From Rhodospirillales bacterium (GTDB taxonomy: Bacteria; Pseudomonadota; Alphaproteobacteria; Acetobacterales; Acetobacteraceae): a stretch of 64,000 nucleotides of DNA. A model generated the notes under the pieces. It ran no database searches, was not told the DNA's origin, and saw nothing but the letters and a program-made list of their open reading frames with translations. Shown here in pieces: positions 48,128 to 58,292 of the stretch. Both the position numbers and the translations under genes were made by a program. The DNA is taken from the NCBI GenBank assembly GCA_025359905.1, contig JANYDF010000043.1, positions 1-64,000 on the forward strand, in the 5' to 3' direction. The stretch's first letter is position 1. The number at the start of each line of letters is the position of its first letter.

Positions 48128-48303
48128 CACACCCCAGCGTGCCGCATCTGGAAGTGCTGCCAGCGCATCTATAATAACCGCGCATGGCGGACATGCCGGG
48201 CGTTGACAAGCCCGCATAGCTGACATGAGATATGTGGAACGTATAAATGGGAGGATGCATCTTTCGGGATGCGCCAGCACACGTGTCAGTAACCAATAAT
48301 AAG

Positions 48304-49317
48304 ATGCCGTCCATTCGCGCCGTCGCTAGCCGCGCCGGGGTGTCCACCGCGACCGTTTCCAACGTCCTCAATGCGCGCCGCAGCGTCGCGCCGGATTTGG
48401 CGGCGCGGGTCCATTCGGCGGTGCAGGAACTTGGCTACATCGCCGATCTCGGGGCGTCGCGGCTGCGTTCGCGCAAGTCGTCCATCGCGGGTGTGCTGGT
48501 GCCCGACATCGCCAACCCGTTCTTTGGCGCCTTCGTCGGCGCATTGGAAGCCGCCGCGCGGCGCGATGGTTACGATCTGCTGATTGTCTCCTCCGGCGGC
48601 GATCCGGTGCAGGAAGCCGCCCGGTTGCGCGCATTGCTGACGTGGCGGCCCGCAGGCGTGGTGGTCATCCCGTGCGACGACTCGCTGGCTGCGCGCGACG
48701 TGGCGATTGCCGCCGGGGTGCCAATGGTCGCCGCCGACCGCATCCCGAGCGGCGAGCCGATCGATTTAGTCGCGGTGGACAATTTCGCCATCGCCAAGCA
48801 GGTGGCGGAACACCTCCTCGCGGGCGGGCGCCGGCATATCCTGGCCGCCACCGGGCATCTGGCGATCAGCAACGTCAACGAACGGATCGACGGCACCAGG
48901 GCGGCGGTGCGCGAATTGGGCGGCACGCTTGAGGTGATCGAGGTTGGCCTCAGCTACCCCGAAAGCCGCGCCCGCCTTGACGCCCGCTTCGCGGCCGGTC
49001 CGTTGCCGGACGCTCTGTTTACGTTGAACAATCTCGCCACGCTGGGCGCGCTGGATGCGCTGTCCGCGCATGGGCTGACGGTGCCGGGCGATATCGCGCT
49101 GGTCGGGTTCGATGACGAACCGTGGATGCACGTGGTCTCGCCGCCGCTTACCGCCGTGCGTCAGCCGGTTGAGCAGATGGGCTTCGAAGCTTGGGCAAGG
49201 CTGATGGCGCGGATTGGTGGCGACGTCTCGCCGCCCGTGCAAGTGCGGCTGCCCTGCACGTTGATAACCCGCGCCTCCAGCCTGCCAATCGACGCTGCTG
49301 CGATGGCCAGCGCCTGA
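48304..49317 (+). CDS. LacI-family transcriptional regulator
   Basis: A 337-residue regulator with a canonical N-terminal HTH (MPSIRAVASRAGVSTATVSN, LNARRSVAPD). A PBP1-like sensor domain follows, with IPCDDSLAARDVA and VGFDDEPW family segments. ATG 48304 gives the usual N-terminus; GTG 48283 or ATG 48247 are possible longer starts. It ends one base before the first of two FGGY kinases and presumably represses the kinase-aldolase operon, responding to its sugar. Confidence 0.93.
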   Translation: MPSIRAVASRAGVSTATVSNVLNARRSVAPDLAARVHSAVQELGYIADLGASRLRSRKSSIAGVLVPDIANPFFGAFVGALEAAARRDGYDLLIVSSGGDPVQEAARLRALLTWRPAGVVVIPCDDSLAARDVAIAAGVPMVAADRIPSGEPIDLVAVDNFAIAKQVAEHLLAGGRRHILAATGHLAISNVNERIDGTRAAVRELGGTLEVIEVGLSYPESRARLDARFAAGPLPDALFTLNNLATLGALDALSAHGLTVPGDIALVGFDDEPWMHVVSPPLTAVRQPVEQMGFEAWARLMARIGGDVSPPVQVRLPCTLITRASSLPIDAAAMASA

Positions 49318-49318
49318 C

Positions 49319-50797
49319 GTGACATGCTTCCTCGGCATCGACCTCGGAACGTCGGCGGTCAAGGCGCTGCTGGTCGATGAGAACGAGTCGGTCCGGGCCG
49401 AAGCCGAAGCGCCGCTGACCGTCAGCAATCCCGGCCCGCTGGCGTCCGAGCAAGACCCGGACGCGTGGTGGGCAGCCGTTTGCGTGGCGCTGGACAAGAT
49501 CAAAGCCGCTGCCCCGGCGGCCATGGCCGAAGTGGCTGGCATCGGCCTGTCCGGCCAGATGCATGCCTCGGTTTTGCTGGATGCGCAGGACCGGCCAATC
49601 CGCCCGGCGATGCTGTGGAACGACGGGCGCGCCCATGCGGAAGCCGATGAATTGAAGCGGCTCGGCCCGGAATTGGCCGCCGAACTGGGCGTGCCGGCGC
49701 TGTCCAGCTTCAATGCCCCCAAGCTGTTGTGGCTGGCGCGGCATGAACCCGAGACATTGGCCCGCACGGCCTCGCTGTTACTGCCAAAGGACTACATCCG
49801 GCTGCATCTGACCGGCGAGCGCGCCACCGACCCGTCGGACGCCGCCGGAACCTGGCTGTTCGACCAAGCGCGCCGCGCCTGGAGCCCGCACGCGGTGGCC
49901 GCTGTCGGCCTCAACCCGGCGCTGCTGCCGCGCGTGGTCGATGGCAGTGCGCCGAGCGGCATCGTGCGCTCCGAAATCGCCGCGCGCTTCGGCCTGCGCC
50001 CCGGCGTGGTGGTGGCGGGCGGCGGCGGCGACACCATGGTGGGCGGCGTTGGAATTGGCGCGGTGGAAGATGGCCGGGCGTTCGTCGGGCTGTCGACCTC
50101 GGCGCAACTGTTCGTCGCCGCCAGCGCGCATCGTCCGGCGCCGGAATATCTGGTGCACTCGTATTGCCACGCGCTGCCGAACCGCTGGTGCCAAATGGCC
50201 GCGCTGCAAAACGGCGCCAGCGTGCTGGCCGCCGTGGCGCACTGGACCGGCGATGCCAGCATTCCCACGCTGCTGGCCGAAGCCGAGGCGCAGTACTGCG
50301 CACCGTCGCGCCTGTTGGTGCTGCCGTATCTGTCTGGCGAACGTACCCCGCATGACGACCCGTATGCGCGCGGCGTGGTGTTCGGCCTGACGCGCGACAC
50401 CGCGCGCGCTGAATTGGTGCAGGCGGCGCTGGAAGGTGTCGCGTTCAGCCTCGCCGACGGTCAAGCGGCACTGGCGGCGGCGGGTGCGCCGATTGCCTCG
50501 GCCGGTATCGTCGGCGGCGGCGCGCGGTCGCTGTTCTGGACGCAACTTATCGCCAGCGTGCTGGGCATTCCGCTGCGGGTTTACGCGGGTGCGGCGCGCG
50601 GCCCGGCGTTCGGCGCCACCCGCCTCGCCCGTTTGGCGCTCGGCCAGGATGACCCAGCGAGCGTGCTGGTGGAACCGCCGGTGCTGCAAACCGTCGAACC
50701 CGATGCACGGCTGACCGAGGCGTACCTTCCGCGCATCGCAGCCTTCCGCCGCTTGTATCGCGCGCTGCGCCCGGAATTCGCCGAGGCGGCGCGGTGA
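49319..50797 (+). CDS. xylB: Xylulokinase-type FGGY carbohydrate kinase
   Basis: A 492-residue FGGY kinase. DLGTSAVKALLVDE (phosphate loop), GIGLSGQMH, MLWNDGRA, and the C-terminal ASAGIVGGGARSLFW match xylulokinase. It phosphorylates a ketopentose with ATP. GTG 49319 begins one base after the regulator's stop. The next kinase overlaps its stop by 4 bases. Confidence 0.9.
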   Translation: MTCFLGIDLGTSAVKALLVDENESVRAEAEAPLTVSNPGPLASEQDPDAWWAAVCVALDKIKAAAPAAMAEVAGIGLSGQMHASVLLDAQDRPIRPAMLWNDGRAHAEADELKRLGPELAAELGVPALSSFNAPKLLWLARHEPETLARTASLLLPKDYIRLHLTGERATDPSDAAGTWLFDQARRAWSPHAVAAVGLNPALLPRVVDGSAPSGIVRSEIAARFGLRPGVVVAGGGGDTMVGGVGIGAVEDGRAFVGLSTSAQLFVAASAHRPAPEYLVHSYCHALPNRWCQMAALQNGASVLAAVAHWTGDASIPTLLAEAEAQYCAPSRLLVLPYLSGERTPHDDPYARGVVFGLTRDTARAELVQAALEGVAFSLADGQAALAAAGAPIASAGIVGGGARSLFWTQLIASVLGIPLRVYAGAARGPAFGATRLARLALGQDDPASVLVEPPVLQTVEPDARLTEAYLPRIAAFRRLYRALRPEFAEAAR

Positions 50798-52185
50798 TCG
50801 CGGTCCTCGACATCGGCAAGACCAACGTCAAATTGTCGGTAGCGACGGCGGACGGCGCGATTATCGAAACCCTGTCAACGCCGAACGCAGTCTATCCCGC
50901 GCCCCCGTACCGGCATCACGACGTCGTGGCACTCGAAGACTGGCTGGCGGGGGCGCTGGCGGCACTGGGCCGCCGCCATGTTATCGACGCCATCATGCCG
51001 TGCGGCCATGGCTCCGGCGCGGTGCTGGTCAATGCCACCGGCCCGGCGATGCCGATGATCGACTACGAAGACGAACCGCCCGCCGCACTGAATGCGCTGT
51101 ATCGCCACATCGTCGGCTGTTACCGCGAACGCGGCAGTGCCGTGATGATGGGTGCGTCGCACATCGCCCGGCAATTGCTGTGGCTGCAAACCGGCTGGCC
51201 GGATGCGGTGGCCAATGCCACGGCATTCCTGGCCTTGCCGCAATACTGGGCGTGGCGCTTGAGCGGCGTGGCGGCGGCGGAACCGTCCTGCCTCGGGGCG
51301 CAATCGCATCTGTGGTCGGCCATCTCGGGCGTGTACGCCCCCATTGTTGCGGCACGCGGCTGGGAACGGCTGTTGCCGGCCATCCGCCCCGGCTGGACGG
51401 CCCTCGGTCCGCTCAGCCCGGAATGGGCGGTGCGCACTGGCCTGCCGGCCGACGTGCCGGTGCTGTGCGGCGTGCATGACAGCACCGCCAACTTCTACCG
51501 CTACCAGGCTGCGGGGATGCGCGGCCTGACGGTGATTTCCACCGGCACCTGGATCGTCGGCATCAGCGACGAGACCCGGCTGGAGGCGCTGGACGAAGCA
51601 CGCGGCATGACCAGCAACGCCGACCCGGCGGGCCGCCCGCTGGCGGGCGCGTTGTGCATGGGCGGGCGCGAATACGCGCTGATCGCCGGGCAGCAATCAG
51701 CCCCCGGCCATGCCGATCCCGCCATCGCCGCAGCCCTGATCGCCCGTGGCACCATCCCGGTGCCCTGCTTCGGCGAGGAGGACGGCATGCTGCCGGGCCG
51801 GGGGGGGCGCGGCTATTTCGACGGTCCGCCGCCCGAGTCTGCCGCCGAGCGGCGGGCGCTGGCGGTGATCGCCACCGCGCTGCTGACCTGCCACGTGCTC
51901 GACTCGCTGGCCAGCCAGGGCAGCGTGGTGCTGGACGGCACGTTCGCCACCGATCCGCTGTATCCGGCGCTGGTGGCATCGCTGCGGCCGGATCAACGCA
52001 TTCTGTTTAACCTCGATACGTACGGTGTTGCCGCAGGGGCGGCCTTGCTCGCCGGGCACGCCAGCCGTACCAACCCAGCGCCGGTGGCCCTGCTGACCGC
52101 CCAACCGCTCACCCTTCCTGCGCTGCCCGCCTATCGCGCCCGCTGGCGCCGGCTGGCCGCTGAACCGACGGAGACACCGACATGA
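50794..52185 (+). CDS. FGGY-family carbohydrate kinase (fuculokinase/rhamnulokinase-like)
   Basis: A 463-residue second FGGY kinase. The N-terminal VLDIGKTNVKLSVA fits the loop, and CGVHDSTANFYRY and VISTGTWIVG mark the branch that includes L-rhamnulose and L-fuculose kinases. GTG 50794 overlaps the xylB stop. With the class II aldolase next, the product is probably a deoxy-ketose 1-phosphate. The substrate is not certain. Confidence 0.85.
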   Translation: MIAVLDIGKTNVKLSVATADGAIIETLSTPNAVYPAPPYRHHDVVALEDWLAGALAALGRRHVIDAIMPCGHGSGAVLVNATGPAMPMIDYEDEPPAALNALYRHIVGCYRERGSAVMMGASHIARQLLWLQTGWPDAVANATAFLALPQYWAWRLSGVAAAEPSCLGAQSHLWSAISGVYAPIVAARGWERLLPAIRPGWTALGPLSPEWAVRTGLPADVPVLCGVHDSTANFYRYQAAGMRGLTVISTGTWIVGISDETRLEALDEARGMTSNADPAGRPLAGALCMGGREYALIAGQQSAPGHADPAIAAALIARGTIPVPCFGEEDGMLPGRGGRGYFDGPPPESAAERRALAVIATALLTCHVLDSLASQGSVVLDGTFATDPLYPALVASLRPDQRILFNLDTYGVAAGAALLAGHASRTNPAPVALLTAQPLTLPALPAYRARWRRLAAEPTETPT

Positions 52186-53039
52186 ACAAAGCCCAAGAAA
52201 ACGCCCTGCGCCGCGAGATGGTCACCACGTGCCGCAAGATGAACAGCACCGGCATCAACCAGGGCACGGCGGGCAACCTGTCGATCCGGCTGGATGACGA
52301 CAGCTTTCTGATCACCCCGTCGTCGCTGCCGTACGACATCATGCAACCGGACGACATCATGAAGATGTGGTTCGACGGCACGTTCGAGGGCAAGCACCGC
52401 CCGTCGTCGGAATGGCGTTTCCACCGCGACATCCTGCGCCACCGCGAAGACATGAACGTGGTGCTGCACTGTCACTCGATGTACGCCACCACGCTGGCGG
52501 TGCACCACAAAACCATCCCGTCGTTTCACTACATGACCGGCGTGGCGGGCGGCATTACCATTCGCTGCGCGCGCTACGCCACCTTCGGCACGCAAGCCCT
52601 GTCCGATGCCGCCATCGAGGCGCTCGACGGCCGCCTCGCCTGCCTGCTCGGCCAGCATGGCCAGATCTCGCTGGGCAAAAGCTTCGCCAGCGCGCTGTGG
52701 CTGGCCGTCGAGGTGGAAACCATCTCGCGCATGTATGTCCAGGCGCTGACGCTGGGCGAGCCGCCGATCCTCAGCGATGAGGAAATGGCCCGCGTGATCG
52801 GCCAGATGCAGCGCATGAGCTACGGCCAGATGCCGGAAGCCGACGGCAGCAACGATGTGGCCCGTCCGAAGGCGGCACCGAAGAAGGCCGCGGCCAAAAA
52901 GGCGGCGCCCGCAAAGAAGGTAGCGGCTGTGAAGAAGGCAGCACCGGCGAAGAAGGCGGCACCGGCTCGGGGGGCGGCGCCCGCGAAGAAGCCGGCTGGC
53001 CGCAAGCCGGCGGCCAAGGCGGCGCGCAAACGCAACTGA
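52182..53039 (+). CDS. Class II aldolase/adducin family protein with histone-H1-like tail
   Basis: A 285-residue protein. Residues 1-215 are a class II aldolase (L-fuculose/rhamnulose phosphate type): E77 and zinc ligands H96 and H98 (LHCHSM), then H159 (LGQHGQ). It would cleave a ketose 1-phosphate to DHAP and an aldehyde. From about residue 228 to 285 the sequence is a Lys/Ala/Pro repeat (AAPKKAAAKKAAPAKK), like the bacterial histone H1-type DNA-binding tails, which is unexpected for an aldolase. ATG 52182 overlaps the kinase stop by 4 bases. Confidence 0.88.
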   Translation: MNKAQENALRREMVTTCRKMNSTGINQGTAGNLSIRLDDDSFLITPSSLPYDIMQPDDIMKMWFDGTFEGKHRPSSEWRFHRDILRHREDMNVVLHCHSMYATTLAVHHKTIPSFHYMTGVAGGITIRCARYATFGTQALSDAAIEALDGRLACLLGQHGQISLGKSFASALWLAVEVETISRMYVQALTLGEPPILSDEEMARVIGQMQRMSYGQMPEADGSNDVARPKAAPKKAAAKKAAPAKKVAAVKKAAPAKKAAPARGAAPAKKPAGRKPAAKAARKRN

Positions 53040-53071: not shown

Positions 53072-53215
53072 ATGTTCGCATCCGCCAAGATCCCGGATCA
53101 TATCACGGCGGCAGAGTTCCTCGCGTGGGATCCGCAGGACGGACAAGCGTGGCAACTGGTCGATGGCGAGCCGCAGGCCATGTCGCCAGCGGGCGTCTCG
53201 CACGCAGGCCGTTGA
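53072..53215 (+). pseudogene. Truncated Uma2-family (DUF820) nuclease start
   Basis: ATG 53072 opens 47 codons, ending at TGA 53213-53215. The residues ITAAEFLAWDPQDGQAWQLV and DGEPQAMSPAGVSHAGR match the N-terminus of Uma2/DUF820 proteins, which normally continue for about 140 more residues with the nuclease core. The rest is absent, so this is a remnant between the aldolase and the molybdenum operon. Confidence 0.6.
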
Positions 53216-53269
53216 CAGCGGCGCGCGCCGCATTCGATCATACGTATACAAATGATCGGACGGCGCCGC

Positions 53270-54109
53270 ATGGGCCTATATCTGACCCCCGCCAGCCTGG
53301 AAGCGGCACTCGATGCCTTGGCCAGCCAGCGCCTGACGGTCCTGGCGGGCGGCACCGATCATTTCCCCGCCCGCGTGCTGCATGCGCCGGACGAAGCCAT
53401 TCTCGACATTACCCGTCTGCCCGGACTGCGCGGCATCGCGCGTCAGGGCAACGCGTGGTGGCTGCCGTGCCTGACCACCTGGGCGGACATCGCCGAAGCC
53501 AGACTTCCGCCGCTGTTCCACGGGTTGCAGCAGGCGGCACGGCAGGTCGGCGGCGCGCAAGTACAGAATGTGGCGACGCTGGCGGGCAATATCTGCAACG
53601 CCAGCCCGGCGGCGGACGGCGTGCCCGCGCTGCTGGCGCTGGACGCCGAAGTGGTGCTGGCCTGCGCCACCGGCGAGCGCACACTGACACTGCAAGACTT
53701 TCTGCGCGGCCCGCGCGAAACCGCACGTCGGCCGGATGAATTGGTGCTTGGCCTGCGTATCCCGGCGGCGGACGCGCGCTCCTGCTTTCTCAAGCTCGGT
53801 GCGCGCGCCTACTTGGTCATCTCAATTGCCATGGTATCCGCCGCCGCCGCATTCGCTGGCGATGGCCGCATTGTCCGCGCCCGCGTGGCCGTCGGCGCGT
53901 GCTCGCCGGTCGCGGCGCGGCTGCCCGCGTTGGAGGCGGCATTGACTGGGCAGTTCCCCGACCCGGCGCTGGTGCGGCCCGAGCATCTTGCGCCGCTGGC
54001 CCCCATCGACGACATCCGCGCCTCGGCAGCCTATCGCCGCCACGCCGCACTCGAACTGGTACGCCGTGCGGTCGCTGCATTGGCCGAAGCGCAGGCGGTG
54101 GCGGCATGA
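53270..54109 (+). CDS. Molybdenum hydroxylase FAD-binding subunit
   Basis: A 279-residue FAD subunit (xanthine dehydrogenase medium-chain type). FAD-binding motifs are LAGGTDHF (25-32) and GGAQVQNVATLAGN (94-107), with a C-terminal CO-dehydrogenase-flavoprotein-like domain. It passes electrons from the Mo/Fe-S subunit to an acceptor. ATG 53270 is chosen because MGLYLTPAS is the usual start; ATG 53252 is in frame. Its stop overlaps the next start by 4 bases. Confidence 0.9.
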   Translation: MGLYLTPASLEAALDALASQRLTVLAGGTDHFPARVLHAPDEAILDITRLPGLRGIARQGNAWWLPCLTTWADIAEARLPPLFHGLQQAARQVGGAQVQNVATLAGNICNASPAADGVPALLALDAEVVLACATGERTLTLQDFLRGPRETARRPDELVLGLRIPAADARSCFLKLGARAYLVISIAMVSAAAAFAGDGRIVRARVAVGACSPVAARLPALEAALTGQFPDPALVRPEHLAPLAPIDDIRASAAYRRHAALELVRRAVAALAEAQAVAA

Positions 54110-56805
54110 ACATCGCGTTCACGCTGAACGGCCGCGCCGTCAGCCTGGATAGCGCGCCGGGCAAACGGCTCGCCGATGTGCTGCGCGACGATCTCGGGCT
54201 GACCGGCACCAAGATCGGCTGCAATGCCGGCGATTGCGGCGCCTGCACGGTGCTGCTCGATGGGCGGCAGGTCTGCGCCTGCATGGTGCCGGTGGCCCGC
54301 GCCGAGGGCCGCAGCGTGCAAACGGTGGAAGGACTGGCCGATGCCGGCGTTTTGTCTGCACTGCAAGCCGCCTTTCTGCGCCACGGGGCGGCACAATGCG
54401 GCATCTGCTCGCCCGGCATGCTGATGGCGGCCAGCGATCTGCTGACGCGCAACGCGAACCCGAGCGAGCCCGAGGTATTGGACGCGCTCGGCGGCGTGCT
54501 GTGCCGCTGCACCGGCTACCGCAAGATTGTCGAGGCAATTCTGGACGTTGGCGGGCAAACGGCGGAGCCTGCGCCCGGTGCGTCGGTCGGCGCGCGGCTG
54601 CCCAAGATCGACGGCCCGGCCAAACTGACCGGCGTTGAGCAATTCGGCGCCGACGCGCTGCCGCCTGAGCCGTGTCTTTCGCTGCACGTGATGCGCAGTC
54701 CGCACCCGCACGCCCGCTTTACGCTCGGAGATTTCACGGCACTGCATGCCGCCCATCCCGGCTTGGCCCGCGTGCTGACAGCCGCCGATATTCCCGGCCG
54801 CAATCTGTATGGCATATACCCAACCGGCAAAGACCAGCCAGTGCTGGCCGAAGGCTACGTGCGCCATCGCGGTGAAGCTGTTTGCGCGCTGGTGGGCGAT
54901 GCCGACACGCTCGCCCGCATCCGCGACGCCGATGTGCCGATTACCTGGGAGATGCTTCCGGCGGTGACTTTCGACGGCGGCGGGGCGGATCTGCACGCCC
55001 ACGCCCCTGATAACGTGCTGTGCCGCGGCCACGTGGCGCGCGGCGATGTGGCCGCCGGACTGCGTGGCGCCGCCCACGCCGCCATCGAAACCCGCTCCGG
55101 CTTCGTCGAGCACGCCTATATCGAGCCCGAGGCCGGTTATGCCCGGCGCACTGGCGAGCGTATCGAAGTGGTGGCCTGCACCCAGACGCCGTACATGGAC
55201 CGCGACGAACTGGCACCGATTCTCGGTATAACACCGGAACAGGTACGTGTCATACCGACCGCCGTCGGCGGCGGGTTTGGCGGCAAACTGGACCTCAGCC
55301 TGCAACCGCTCGCCTGCATCGCGGCGTGGCTGCTGAACCGCCCGGTGCGCGTGGTCTACACGCGGCCCGAAAGCATGGTCTCCACCACCAAGCGCCACCC
55401 ATCGCGCATCGCAGCCGAGGCGGCAGCGGATGCCGATGGGCGGCTGACCGGCTTTCGTTTCCACGGCGATTTCGATACCGGCGCCTATGCCAGTTGGGGG
55501 CCGACGGTGGCCAACCGGGTGCCGGTGCACGCCACCGGCCCGTACCAAGTGCCCAATCTGCTGTGCACCAGCACCGCCATTCACACCAACGGCCCGCCGT
55601 CCGGCGCGTTTCGCGGCTTCGGCGTGCCGCAGGCGGCGATTGCCGGTGAGGCGCTGATGGACATGCTGGCCGCGCAATTGGGCCTCGACCCGTGGGCAAT
55701 CCGCCGCATCAACGCGCTCGGCGTCGATGGCGTGACCGCGACTGGGCAGGTGCTGGGCGAAGGTGCGGCGTTGCCGGAATGCCTGGACGCGATCAAGCCA
55801 CGCTGGGACGCACTGCGCGCGGAAGCGGCCGCGTTCAACGCACGCCAAACCGGGCCTCTGCGGCGCGGCGCGGGTATCGCTTGCATGTGGTACGGCATCG
55901 GCAACACCAGCCTCGCCAACCCGTCAGAAATGAGCGTTGGCATCACCCAGGATGGCCGCGCGGTGCTGTTCTCGGGCGCGGTGGATATTGGCCAGGGTTC
56001 CAACACTATCATGCTGCAAATCGCCGCCGATGCTCTGGGCATTCCAGCGAATGCGCTGGACCTGGTGGCGGGCGACACCGGCCGCACCCGCGATGCTGGG
56101 AAAACCAGCGCATCGCGGCAAACCTTCGTCAGCGGCAATGCGGCGAAACGGGCAGGCGAGGCGTTGCGCGCCGAGATTCTCCGCCGGGTGAATGCCGGGC
56201 CGAGTGCCGCCATCGCGCTGACGGACGGCAAGATCGCCGTGACCGATGCTGGGCAAACCACCCTGCTCGACCCGTCGTTGCTACCGGCCGAAGCGGAGGG
56301 TGTGGTGCTGCGCGGCGTGGGCCGCTTCGATCCGCCCACCACGCCGCTGGACGCCAACGGCCAGGGCATCCCGTACGCGGCGTACGCCTTCGCGGCGCAG
56401 GCAGCCTTGGTGGAGGTGGATACCGCGCTCGGCACCGTGCGCGTGTTGCGCATCGTGGCGGCACATGACGTGGGGCGGGCAGTGAACCCAACGCAGGTCG
56501 AAGGCCAAATCCACGGCGGTATCGCGCAAGGTCTGGGCCTTGCCTTGATGGAGGAATACGTGCCCGGCCGCACCGATAACCTGCACGATTACTTGATCCC
56601 CACCATCGGCGACATCCCGCCCATCGAGACGCTGTTGATCGAACGACCCGACCCGCTCGGCCCGTACGGTGCGAAGGGCGTCGGCGAGCCGGCACTGGTG
56701 GCCACGGCACCGGCCATTCTGAACGCCATTCATCACGCCACCGGCGCGCGCATCACCCAGGTACCGGCAACGCCGGATCGCGTGCTGGCGGCGCTGCGCC
56801 AATGA
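54106..56805 (+). CDS. Molybdopterin hydroxylase, fused 2Fe-2S and Mo-binding subunit
   Basis: An 899-residue fusion. The first 150 residues form a two-cluster 2Fe-2S domain: C39, C44, C47 and C59, then C98, C101, C133 and C135. From about 165 the molybdenum domain begins; Mo-cofactor contacts appear as VGGGFGGKLDL, and the catalytic Glu is E861 in GAKGVGEPALV. No FAD domain is present; that is the preceding gene. The fusion arrangement resembles XdhD-like enzymes that hydroxylate purines or N-heterocycles. The start overlaps the FAD gene's stop, and its stop overlaps the next gene. Confidence 0.94.
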   Translation: MNIAFTLNGRAVSLDSAPGKRLADVLRDDLGLTGTKIGCNAGDCGACTVLLDGRQVCACMVPVARAEGRSVQTVEGLADAGVLSALQAAFLRHGAAQCGICSPGMLMAASDLLTRNANPSEPEVLDALGGVLCRCTGYRKIVEAILDVGGQTAEPAPGASVGARLPKIDGPAKLTGVEQFGADALPPEPCLSLHVMRSPHPHARFTLGDFTALHAAHPGLARVLTAADIPGRNLYGIYPTGKDQPVLAEGYVRHRGEAVCALVGDADTLARIRDADVPITWEMLPAVTFDGGGADLHAHAPDNVLCRGHVARGDVAAGLRGAAHAAIETRSGFVEHAYIEPEAGYARRTGERIEVVACTQTPYMDRDELAPILGITPEQVRVIPTAVGGGFGGKLDLSLQPLACIAAWLLNRPVRVVYTRPESMVSTTKRHPSRIAAEAAADADGRLTGFRFHGDFDTGAYASWGPTVANRVPVHATGPYQVPNLLCTSTAIHTNGPPSGAFRGFGVPQAAIAGEALMDMLAAQLGLDPWAIRRINALGVDGVTATGQVLGEGAALPECLDAIKPRWDALRAEAAAFNARQTGPLRRGAGIACMWYGIGNTSLANPSEMSVGITQDGRAVLFSGAVDIGQGSNTIMLQIAADALGIPANALDLVAGDTGRTRDAGKTSASRQTFVSGNAAKRAGEALRAEILRRVNAGPSAAIALTDGKIAVTDAGQTTLLDPSLLPAEAEGVVLRGVGRFDPPTTPLDANGQGIPYAAYAFAAQAALVEVDTALGTVRVLRIVAAHDVGRAVNPTQVEGQIHGGIAQGLGLALMEEYVPGRTDNLHDYLIPTIGDIPPIETLLIERPDPLGPYGAKGVGEPALVATAPAILNAIHHATGARITQVPATPDRVLAALRQ

Positions 56806-58292
56806 CCACCGCCCACGCCGGACCTCCCGGCCCGGACCAAGCGGCGCTGTCCGCCGCCGTCGAACCCGGCCCCGAACCTACGATTGTCACCTGCGACGCC
56901 TGCCCGGTGCTGTGCCGCATCCGTGCCGGCAAGACCGGGGCCTGCGACCGCTACGGCAACACCGGTGGCCGCCTGACCCGCCTGGACCCGCTGACCGTGC
57001 TGACCCGCTCGCCCGAGGCGGTGCGGTTTGCCGGCGCCGACTGGACCGGCAACCCGATTGCGGCGCGCGACGTGTTCGTCACCGCCATCGGCGCGGGCAC
57101 CACCTACCCGGACTACAAGCCCGCGCCGTTCATCGTCGGCAGCGAGGTCGATGGCGTCGATATGGTGACCGTCGTGTCCGAAGGCGTGTTCAGCTATTGC
57201 GGCCTGAAGGTCAAAATCGACACCGACCGCTTTCTCGGCCAGGAATGCGCCGCCGTGCGAGCCCATGGCGAGGCGATCGGCCACATCACCACCGCCGAAT
57301 ACGGCAGCCAGATGCTCTCGCTCGGCGGCGTGCATCATCTGACCGGCGGCTCCAAGCGCGAAGGCGTGGTGACCTGCGAAACGTTGCTGGCGCTGGCCAA
57401 CGGCGGTGCTGTCGAACTGACAGTCGATGGCGGCGCCACGGTGCTGGTGCAATCCGGCGCCGCCCCGGTGGTCGATGGCGTGCCCGAGCACCGGATGCGG
57501 GTCGGCTGCGGCAGCGCCACCATCGGGATTTTCGCCAATCAGTGGCTCGGCCATGCCGACGAGGTGATCGTGGTGGATGACCACATCACTGGCGTGTTGA
57601 GCGAACACCAGGCGGGCAAATTCCTTGGCCTGCGCCCGGCGGGCATCCGGGTGCGCGGGCGGCGATCCACCCCAGGACGGTATTTTCAGGTGGCCAATCC
57701 GGGCCAGGGCTGGGGCGGCACCGATATCGCTGAGCCGTTGAGCATCATCGAGAAGATCGACCCCAAGCTTGCGTGGCCCGGCCTGCGGCTGCTGATGGTG
57801 TCCACCACTGGCGAACATGCGGCGTGGTTCGTGCTGGACGACGCCTTGCGCCCGCAACCGGCTGGAATGCCGCCCGCGATTGCCGCCGCCGTGGCGCGCA
57901 TCGGCGAGAACTGCGAACCGGCGCTTTGCACCGTGCTGTTCATGGCGGGCGCTGGCGGAAGCTTGCGCGCCGGAGCGACGGAAAATCCGGTGCTGCTGAC
58001 CCGCTCGGTGCAATCCGGGCGCGCCCGCGTCACCTCGGGCGGGGCACCGGTTTACGTGTGGCCGGGCGGCGGGATCACCTACATGGCCGATGTCGCCACG
58101 ATGCCGGCCGACGCCTTCGGCAGCGTGCCGACCCCGGCGCTGGTGGCGCCGATTGAATTCACCCTGCCGCTGGCCGATTACGCAGCACTGGGCGGGCACA
58201 TGGAACGGGTTCGGCCGGTGGCCGAATTGCTCGCCGATGCGCGGCCGCGCGGCGTCGTGCTGCCGCCGGGCGTATCGTTTCCAGTTTTGTGA
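56802..58292 (+). CDS. 6-hydroxynicotinate reductase-like iron-sulfur protein
   Basis: A 496-residue protein with a ferredoxin-like [4Fe-4S] cluster at the N-terminus: C31, C34, C38 and C48 (TCDACPVLCRIRAGKTGACD). The rest is a large beta-rich domain with many Gly turns, which I match to 6-hydroxynicotinate reductase. The characterised enzyme, from an anaerobic nicotinate fermenter, reduces 6-hydroxynicotinate to tetrahydro-6-oxonicotinate with ferredoxin. Its coupling to a molybdenum hydroxylase fits a hydroxylate-then-reduce pathway. ATG 56802 overlaps the upstream stop; the stop overlaps the DUF559 start. Confidence 0.8.
   Translation: MTTAHAGPPGPDQAALSAAVEPGPEPTIVTCDACPVLCRIRAGKTGACDRYGNTGGRLTRLDPLTVLTRSPEAVRFAGADWTGNPIAARDVFVTAIGAGTTYPDYKPAPFIVGSEVDGVDMVTVVSEGVFSYCGLKVKIDTDRFLGQECAAVRAHGEAIGHITTAEYGSQMLSLGGVHHLTGGSKREGVVTCETLLALANGGAVELTVDGGATVLVQSGAAPVVDGVPEHRMRVGCGSATIGIFANQWLGHADEVIVVDDHITGVLSEHQAGKFLGLRPAGIRVRGRRSTPGRYFQVANPGQGWGGTDIAEPLSIIEKIDPKLAWPGLRLLMVSTTGEHAAWFVLDDALRPQPAGMPPAIAAAVARIGENCEPALCTVLFMAGAGGSLRAGATENPVLLTRSVQSGRARVTSGGAPVYVWPGGGITYMADVATMPADAFGSVPTPALVAPIEFTLPLADYAALGGHMERVRPVAELLADARPRGVVLPPGVSFPVL

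Follow-up and report, generated by a model that had tools for sequence, protein, structure and literature searches.

A FucA-type class II aldolase with a lineage-specific, histone-H1-like Lys/Ala/Pro tail in Acetobacteraceae

Described tails and aldolase relatives

H1-like tails have been described on mycobacterial HupB and actinobacterial TopA, and removal of the PAKK/KAAK tail of HupB impairs nucleoid binding (PMC5676037). The Pseudomonas proteins AlgP and PhaF carry H1-like KPAA tails, and granule spacing is impaired when the tail of AlgP is removed (PMC9239181). Prokaryotic lysine-rich low-complexity regions have been linked with DNA binding in a survey that also recalls eukaryotic proteome analyses, according to which low-complexity regions are underrepresented in metabolic proteins (PMC6821194). 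Here we describe such a tail on an enzyme encoded in the window, a 64,000-nucleotide stretch of an Acetobacteraceae genome. Like the tails of HupB, TopA, AlgP and PhaF, with their PAKK/KAAK or KPAA units, it is low-complexity, disordered, strongly basic and terminal; its length is 55 residues, compared with 154 for the repeat region of AlgP. Unlike those hosts, which are DNA- or granule-associated, the host in the window is a sugar aldolase, and Pfam detected no nucleic-acid- or granule-associated partner domain beside Aldolase_II. We do not claim the protein as a member of the HupB/TopA/AlgP type; a similar mode of working is possible.

The closest solved relatives of the window aldolase are the structures of E. 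coli FucA. FucA entries are also the best Foldseek matches to its predicted structure, with a TM-score (target) of 0.96 and 42% identity to E. coli FucA. The two proteins (1FUA and mutants for FucA) share the fold, the metal histidines, the catalytic Glu and the equivalent of Tyr113. In contrast to the window aldolase, E. coli FucA has 215 residues, stops right after the C-terminal loop and has no basic tail. In FucA this loop is located at the active site of the tetramer.

Like the window protein, eukaryotic adducin, of the class II aldolase/adducin family, has an aldolase-fold head; this head is inactive as an enzyme and binds actin and spectrin, and a lysine-rich, MARCKS-related tail follows at the C-terminus. 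The spectrin-actin junctional complex 8iah, of which adducin is a component, appeared as a distant fold match to the model of the window aldolase (Foldseek). The tail sequences are unrelated, and the resemblance would be convergent.

The aldolase, its operon and its tail

The PF00596 match of the window protein is full length (profile positions 1-183 of 183, E=5e-49), which places it in the class II aldolase/adducin family (Table 1). As the preliminary description proposed, the metal site is intact: the catalytic Glu and the metal-binding His triad are invariant, together with Y117, in 36 aligned sequences. In the same alignment Y214 is nearly invariant and, with the alignment extended by eye, it is probably the counterpart of E. 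coli FucA Tyr209. AlphaFold models the core with a pLDDT of 94-98. Scores against the NCBIfam fucA equivalogs fall below the curated cutoffs (TIGR01086, 193 of 400 bits; NF005302, 177 of 264 bits). Thus, we do not file the protein as FucA proper.

Table 1. Features of the aldolase locus in the window
Feature	Position	Strand	Description and basis
LacI-family regulator	48247..49317	+	Operon head; Pfam, synteny
XylB-type xylulokinase	49319..50797	+	NCBIfam TIGR01312, 480.7 bits (cutoff 380.25), synteny; kept in relatives
FGGY_C_2 carbohydrate kinase	50794..52185	+	Stop codon overlaps the ATG start of the aldolase; Pfam, synteny; nearest solved structure 3h6e
Whole aldolase ORF	52182..53039	+	285 aa, FucA-type class II aldolase with Lys/Ala/Pro-rich C-terminal tail
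Aldolase_II (PF00596) catalytic domain	52212..52739	+	Residues 11-186; Pfam
E77	52410-52412	+
H96	52467-52469	+
H98	52473-52475	+
H159	52656-52658	+
Conserved C-terminal linker MSYGQMPEADGSNDVARPK	52815..52871	+	Residues 212-230; common to orthologs
Imperfect 15-nt and 18-nt tandem repeats	52868..52996	+	Encode AAPKK / AAPAKK units; TRF, unit comparison
Lys/Ala/Pro/Arg tail, predicted disordered	52872..53036	+	55 residues (231-285), starting where the conserved ARPK motif ends
FAD-binding subunit, molybdopterin dehydrogenase	53252..54109	+	Pfam; synteny in L077, L079
Molybdopterin aldehyde oxidase/xanthine dehydrogenase-like large subunit	54109..56805 (start provisional)	+	Pfam, NCBIfam, synteny

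The order of LacI regulator, XylB, FGGY_C_2 kinase and aldolase is kept in relatives as far as their contigs extend, and the molybdenum oxidoreductase subunits lie downstream of the aldolase in two loci (L077 and L079). The operon ends with a 496-residue protein (56802-58292, + strand), which is 77-78% identical in L077 (partial) and L079 and has no significant match in Pfam, NCBIfam or the PDB. Between the aldolase and the FAD subunit lies a short frame (53073-53216; MFASAKIPDHITAAEFLAWDPQDGQAWQLVDGEPQAMSPAGVSHAGR) that resembles, by eye, a truncated Uma2-type nuclease start and has no Pfam match. In Skermanella the ortholog lies beside both XylB and an FGGY kinase; in Aureimonas and Chelatococcus its neighbour is an FGGY kinase. 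The Aminobacter ortholog adjoins rhaI and rhaM, a placement that points to rhamnulose-1-phosphate or a similar ketose-1-phosphate as its substrate. The window aldolase probably cleaves a ketose-1-phosphate to DHAP and a short aldehyde, either lactaldehyde or glycolaldehyde, and the downstream oxidoreductase could oxidise the aldehyde so released.

The reading frame runs uninterrupted into the tail, and the length of about 58 residues first given for it was right to within a few (55, or 56 counted from K230). These 56 residues comprise 16 K, 4 R, 24 A, 7 P, 2 V, 2 G and 1 N, with no D or E, and the net charge of the tail is about +20. AlphaFold gives it a mean pLDDT of 49-70 and no secondary structure. 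Being Lys/Ala/Pro-rich, predicted disordered and built of PAKK/KAAK-like repeats, it is H1-like. Differences between the repeat units are mainly synonymous (pS 0.58 against pN 0.20, from five 18-nt units and few sites), which suggests, as far as so few sites can, that amino-acid composition was kept after duplication and hints that the amino acids of the tail are under selection. The genome is 66% GC (sample). Random GC-rich frames yield arginine, as in the read-through end of L016 (20 R, 0 K), whereas lysine exceeds arginine in the window tail; judged by its composition, the tail is unlike such read-through.

Orthologs and the origin of the long form

In 6 genomes of the GTDB family to which the window belongs, the orthologs (75-84% identity) have the same junction as the window copy, and the motif SYGQ.P...ND.ARP(K/R) at this junction is common to orthologs at 72-84% identity. 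Five of the six family relatives continue for 6-22 further residues that are rich in basic amino acids (for example RPPAAARKRR, AAKAARKLSGKRG and GVAKRTRAKGAGATAKRPVRRA). In the nearest ortholog (L075, on G028:C297; 83-84% identity) the contig end cuts the tail after 10 residues, and the tail is possibly longer and repetitive beyond it; a close copy of the FAD subunit was not found in G028. The 13 plasmid copies from rhizobia and Skermanella (72-80% identity), from genera that include Sinorhizobium, Rhizobium, Ensifer, Aminobacter and Chelatococcus, share the motif SYGxAPDxxGxND with the window copy but lack the long tail. Most stop 0-5 residues beyond ARPR or its equivalent; as exceptions, L315 extends 10 residues and L322 has its own end in place of the motif. 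Homologs ending near residue 220, which the preliminary description named as one part of what would refute it, are not the rule, since ortholog C-termini lie at about residue 223-251.

The sequence after ARPK is not alignable among orthologs, and the 55-residue form is seen, in the 20-sequence ortholog set, in the window copy only (one genome). A search for the tail in homologous aldolases, advised at the outset, returned short basic ends in family relatives and the 55-residue form in none of the orthologs. In a tree of the catalytic core, from which the more distant L139 was left out, all 20 sequences form one well-supported group (100/99), and the window copy is placed beside G028 with modest support (92/79). 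Given the ortholog tail lengths and this placement, the simplest reading of the 55-residue form is that it expanded along the branch leading to the window copy alone, with the reservation that the contig edge cuts the G028 tail. The short basic tails would be either ancestral, with loss in the rhizobia, or gained in the window's family.

The initial picture of an intact aldolase with a real H1-like tail is supported, but neither of the explanations offered with it, a fusion or a frame extension (taken in the sense of sequencing or assembly error), is. A fusion to a separate DNA-binding domain was rejected, as Aldolase_II is the sole Pfam domain in the protein. Nor does 'fusion' describe the change well, since it involved the lengthening of a short basic end through 15/18-nt repeats and not the joining of another domain.

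In another alphaproteobacterial family, one FucA-type aldolase (L139:1480-2328) has its own Lys/Ala/Thr/Pro-rich C-terminal end. Past the YG in the C-terminal loop this end runs for 71 residues, 23 of them K/R and 1 acidic; by the same measure the window copy runs 70. Three other aldolases (L032, L030 and L049) have basic ends 33-39 residues past this YG. We rejected a single origin for the long tails of L139 and the window copy, as L139 is only 42-47% identical and most aldolases that distant are short-tailed.

Similar tails and possible roles

Scanning six frames of 1.75 Mb of the 4.63-Mb window genome, we found four recognisable proteins with such tails: the aldolase, HisE, hydantoinase B and topoisomerase I. 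The tail is N-terminal in HisE and hydantoinase B and C-terminal in topoisomerase I, where such tails are already known to occur. Because only these four recognised-protein frames carry such a stretch, the window tail is not a product of chance. The extension of HisE (phosphoribosyl-ATP pyrophosphatase; L081, G000:C1:8333-8818, and L091-L120) is Lys/Ala/Pro-rich and about 30-60 residues long. Scored as at least 6 Lys within a 25-residue stretch upstream of the core, it occurs at 29 of 30 loci of the window's family and, in other families of the class, at only 1 of 28; the former fraction is biased upward to some degree, as the 30 are the top-scoring loci from a search that took in the tail. 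It is absent in L151, from a smaller genome of the window's family, and its composition is conserved while its sequence is not. The hydantoinase B (L203:13203-15086, on G000:C128) is of the caprolactamase-beta type (1130 bits against a cutoff of 1000) and has a Lys/Ala/Pro N-terminal tail of ~45 residues; tailed orthologs were not found in the window's family, where only distant paralogs (33-40% identity), all tailless, were recovered. Neither HisE tails in Acetobacteraceae nor bacterial aldolases with tails turned up in our literature search.

Our preferred reading, at even odds when taken as a whole with the consequence given below, is that the protein is a working ketose-1-phosphate aldolase in which repeat duplication drew a short basic C-terminal extension out into a disordered polycation. 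Catalysis would be the usual class II aldol cleavage, and a floppy polycation would follow just past the C-terminal loop. In family relatives the extension after this loop is short, basic, variable in sequence and unstructured, and in the window lineage it very probably grew to 55 residues through repeated 15/18-nt duplications. Four tails would surround the enzyme if, as we infer, it forms a homotetramer in the manner of FucA. The most likely consequence, at about even odds, is weak electrostatic contact, regardless of sequence, with polyanions (RNA, DNA or polyphosphate) and/or better solubility, with catalysis unchanged. Such putative loose contact is plausible and expected from chemistry; the tail may adhere loosely to polyanionic polymers or have little effect. 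Composition alone does not imply that the tail localises the enzyme to DNA, and contact with RNA or polyphosphate, or no function, is also possible. As a counterpoint, relatives differ freely in tail length and sequence, as would also be expected of a region under no selection.

A functionless tail, accreted neutrally as low-complexity sequence through replication slippage in GC-rich repeats, is possible but rather doubtful. Neutral accretion would account for ortholog tails of any length from 0 to 55 residues, for the failure of the sequence after ARPK to align and for a long form seen in the window lineage only, but it sits less well with the basic end kept by all family relatives, the lysine that persists against GC bias, the chiefly synonymous differences between repeat units and the independent rise of a similar tail in L139.

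It is quite unlikely that the tail is a localisation tag which, as in HupB, PhaF and AlgP, would tether the aldolase to the nucleoid or to polyphosphate granules. The composition does resemble the PAKK/KAAK and KPAA tails of HupB and AlgP (PMC5676037, PMC9239181), and several enzymes of the genome bear such tails, that of HisE family-wide. However, composition does not identify a ligand, a partner DNA-binding domain is absent (Pfam), orthologs in equivalent operons do without the long tail, and the known cases are DNA- or granule-associated proteins.

An earlier true stop, with the tail arising from a misread frame or a misassembled repeat, is scarcely credible. Repetitive DNA is easily misassembled and the G028 contig stops inside the tail, but the junction common to orthologs speaks against a frameshift or misassembly, the frame matches theirs through ARPK and into basic residues with no indel needed, relatives have short basic ends, and the imperfect units, mostly synonymous in their differences, read as K/A/P codons throughout, although their exact number could be off.

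The window holds an ordinary aldolase with a lineage-specific tail of an already known type. It seems very unlikely that H1-like tails serve in the window's family as a general, interchangeable tag that brings HisE, the aldolase and the caprolactamase-type hydantoinase to a polyanion compartment (RNA, nucleoid or polyphosphate). The aldolase offers a clear case of an enzyme that gained an H1-like tail stepwise, starting out with a short basic end, and its tailless orthologs serve as natural controls. Alongside the conserved tail of HisE, which is family-wide and the better lead, it raises the question of whether metabolic enzymes of bacteria draw any function from polycationic tails.
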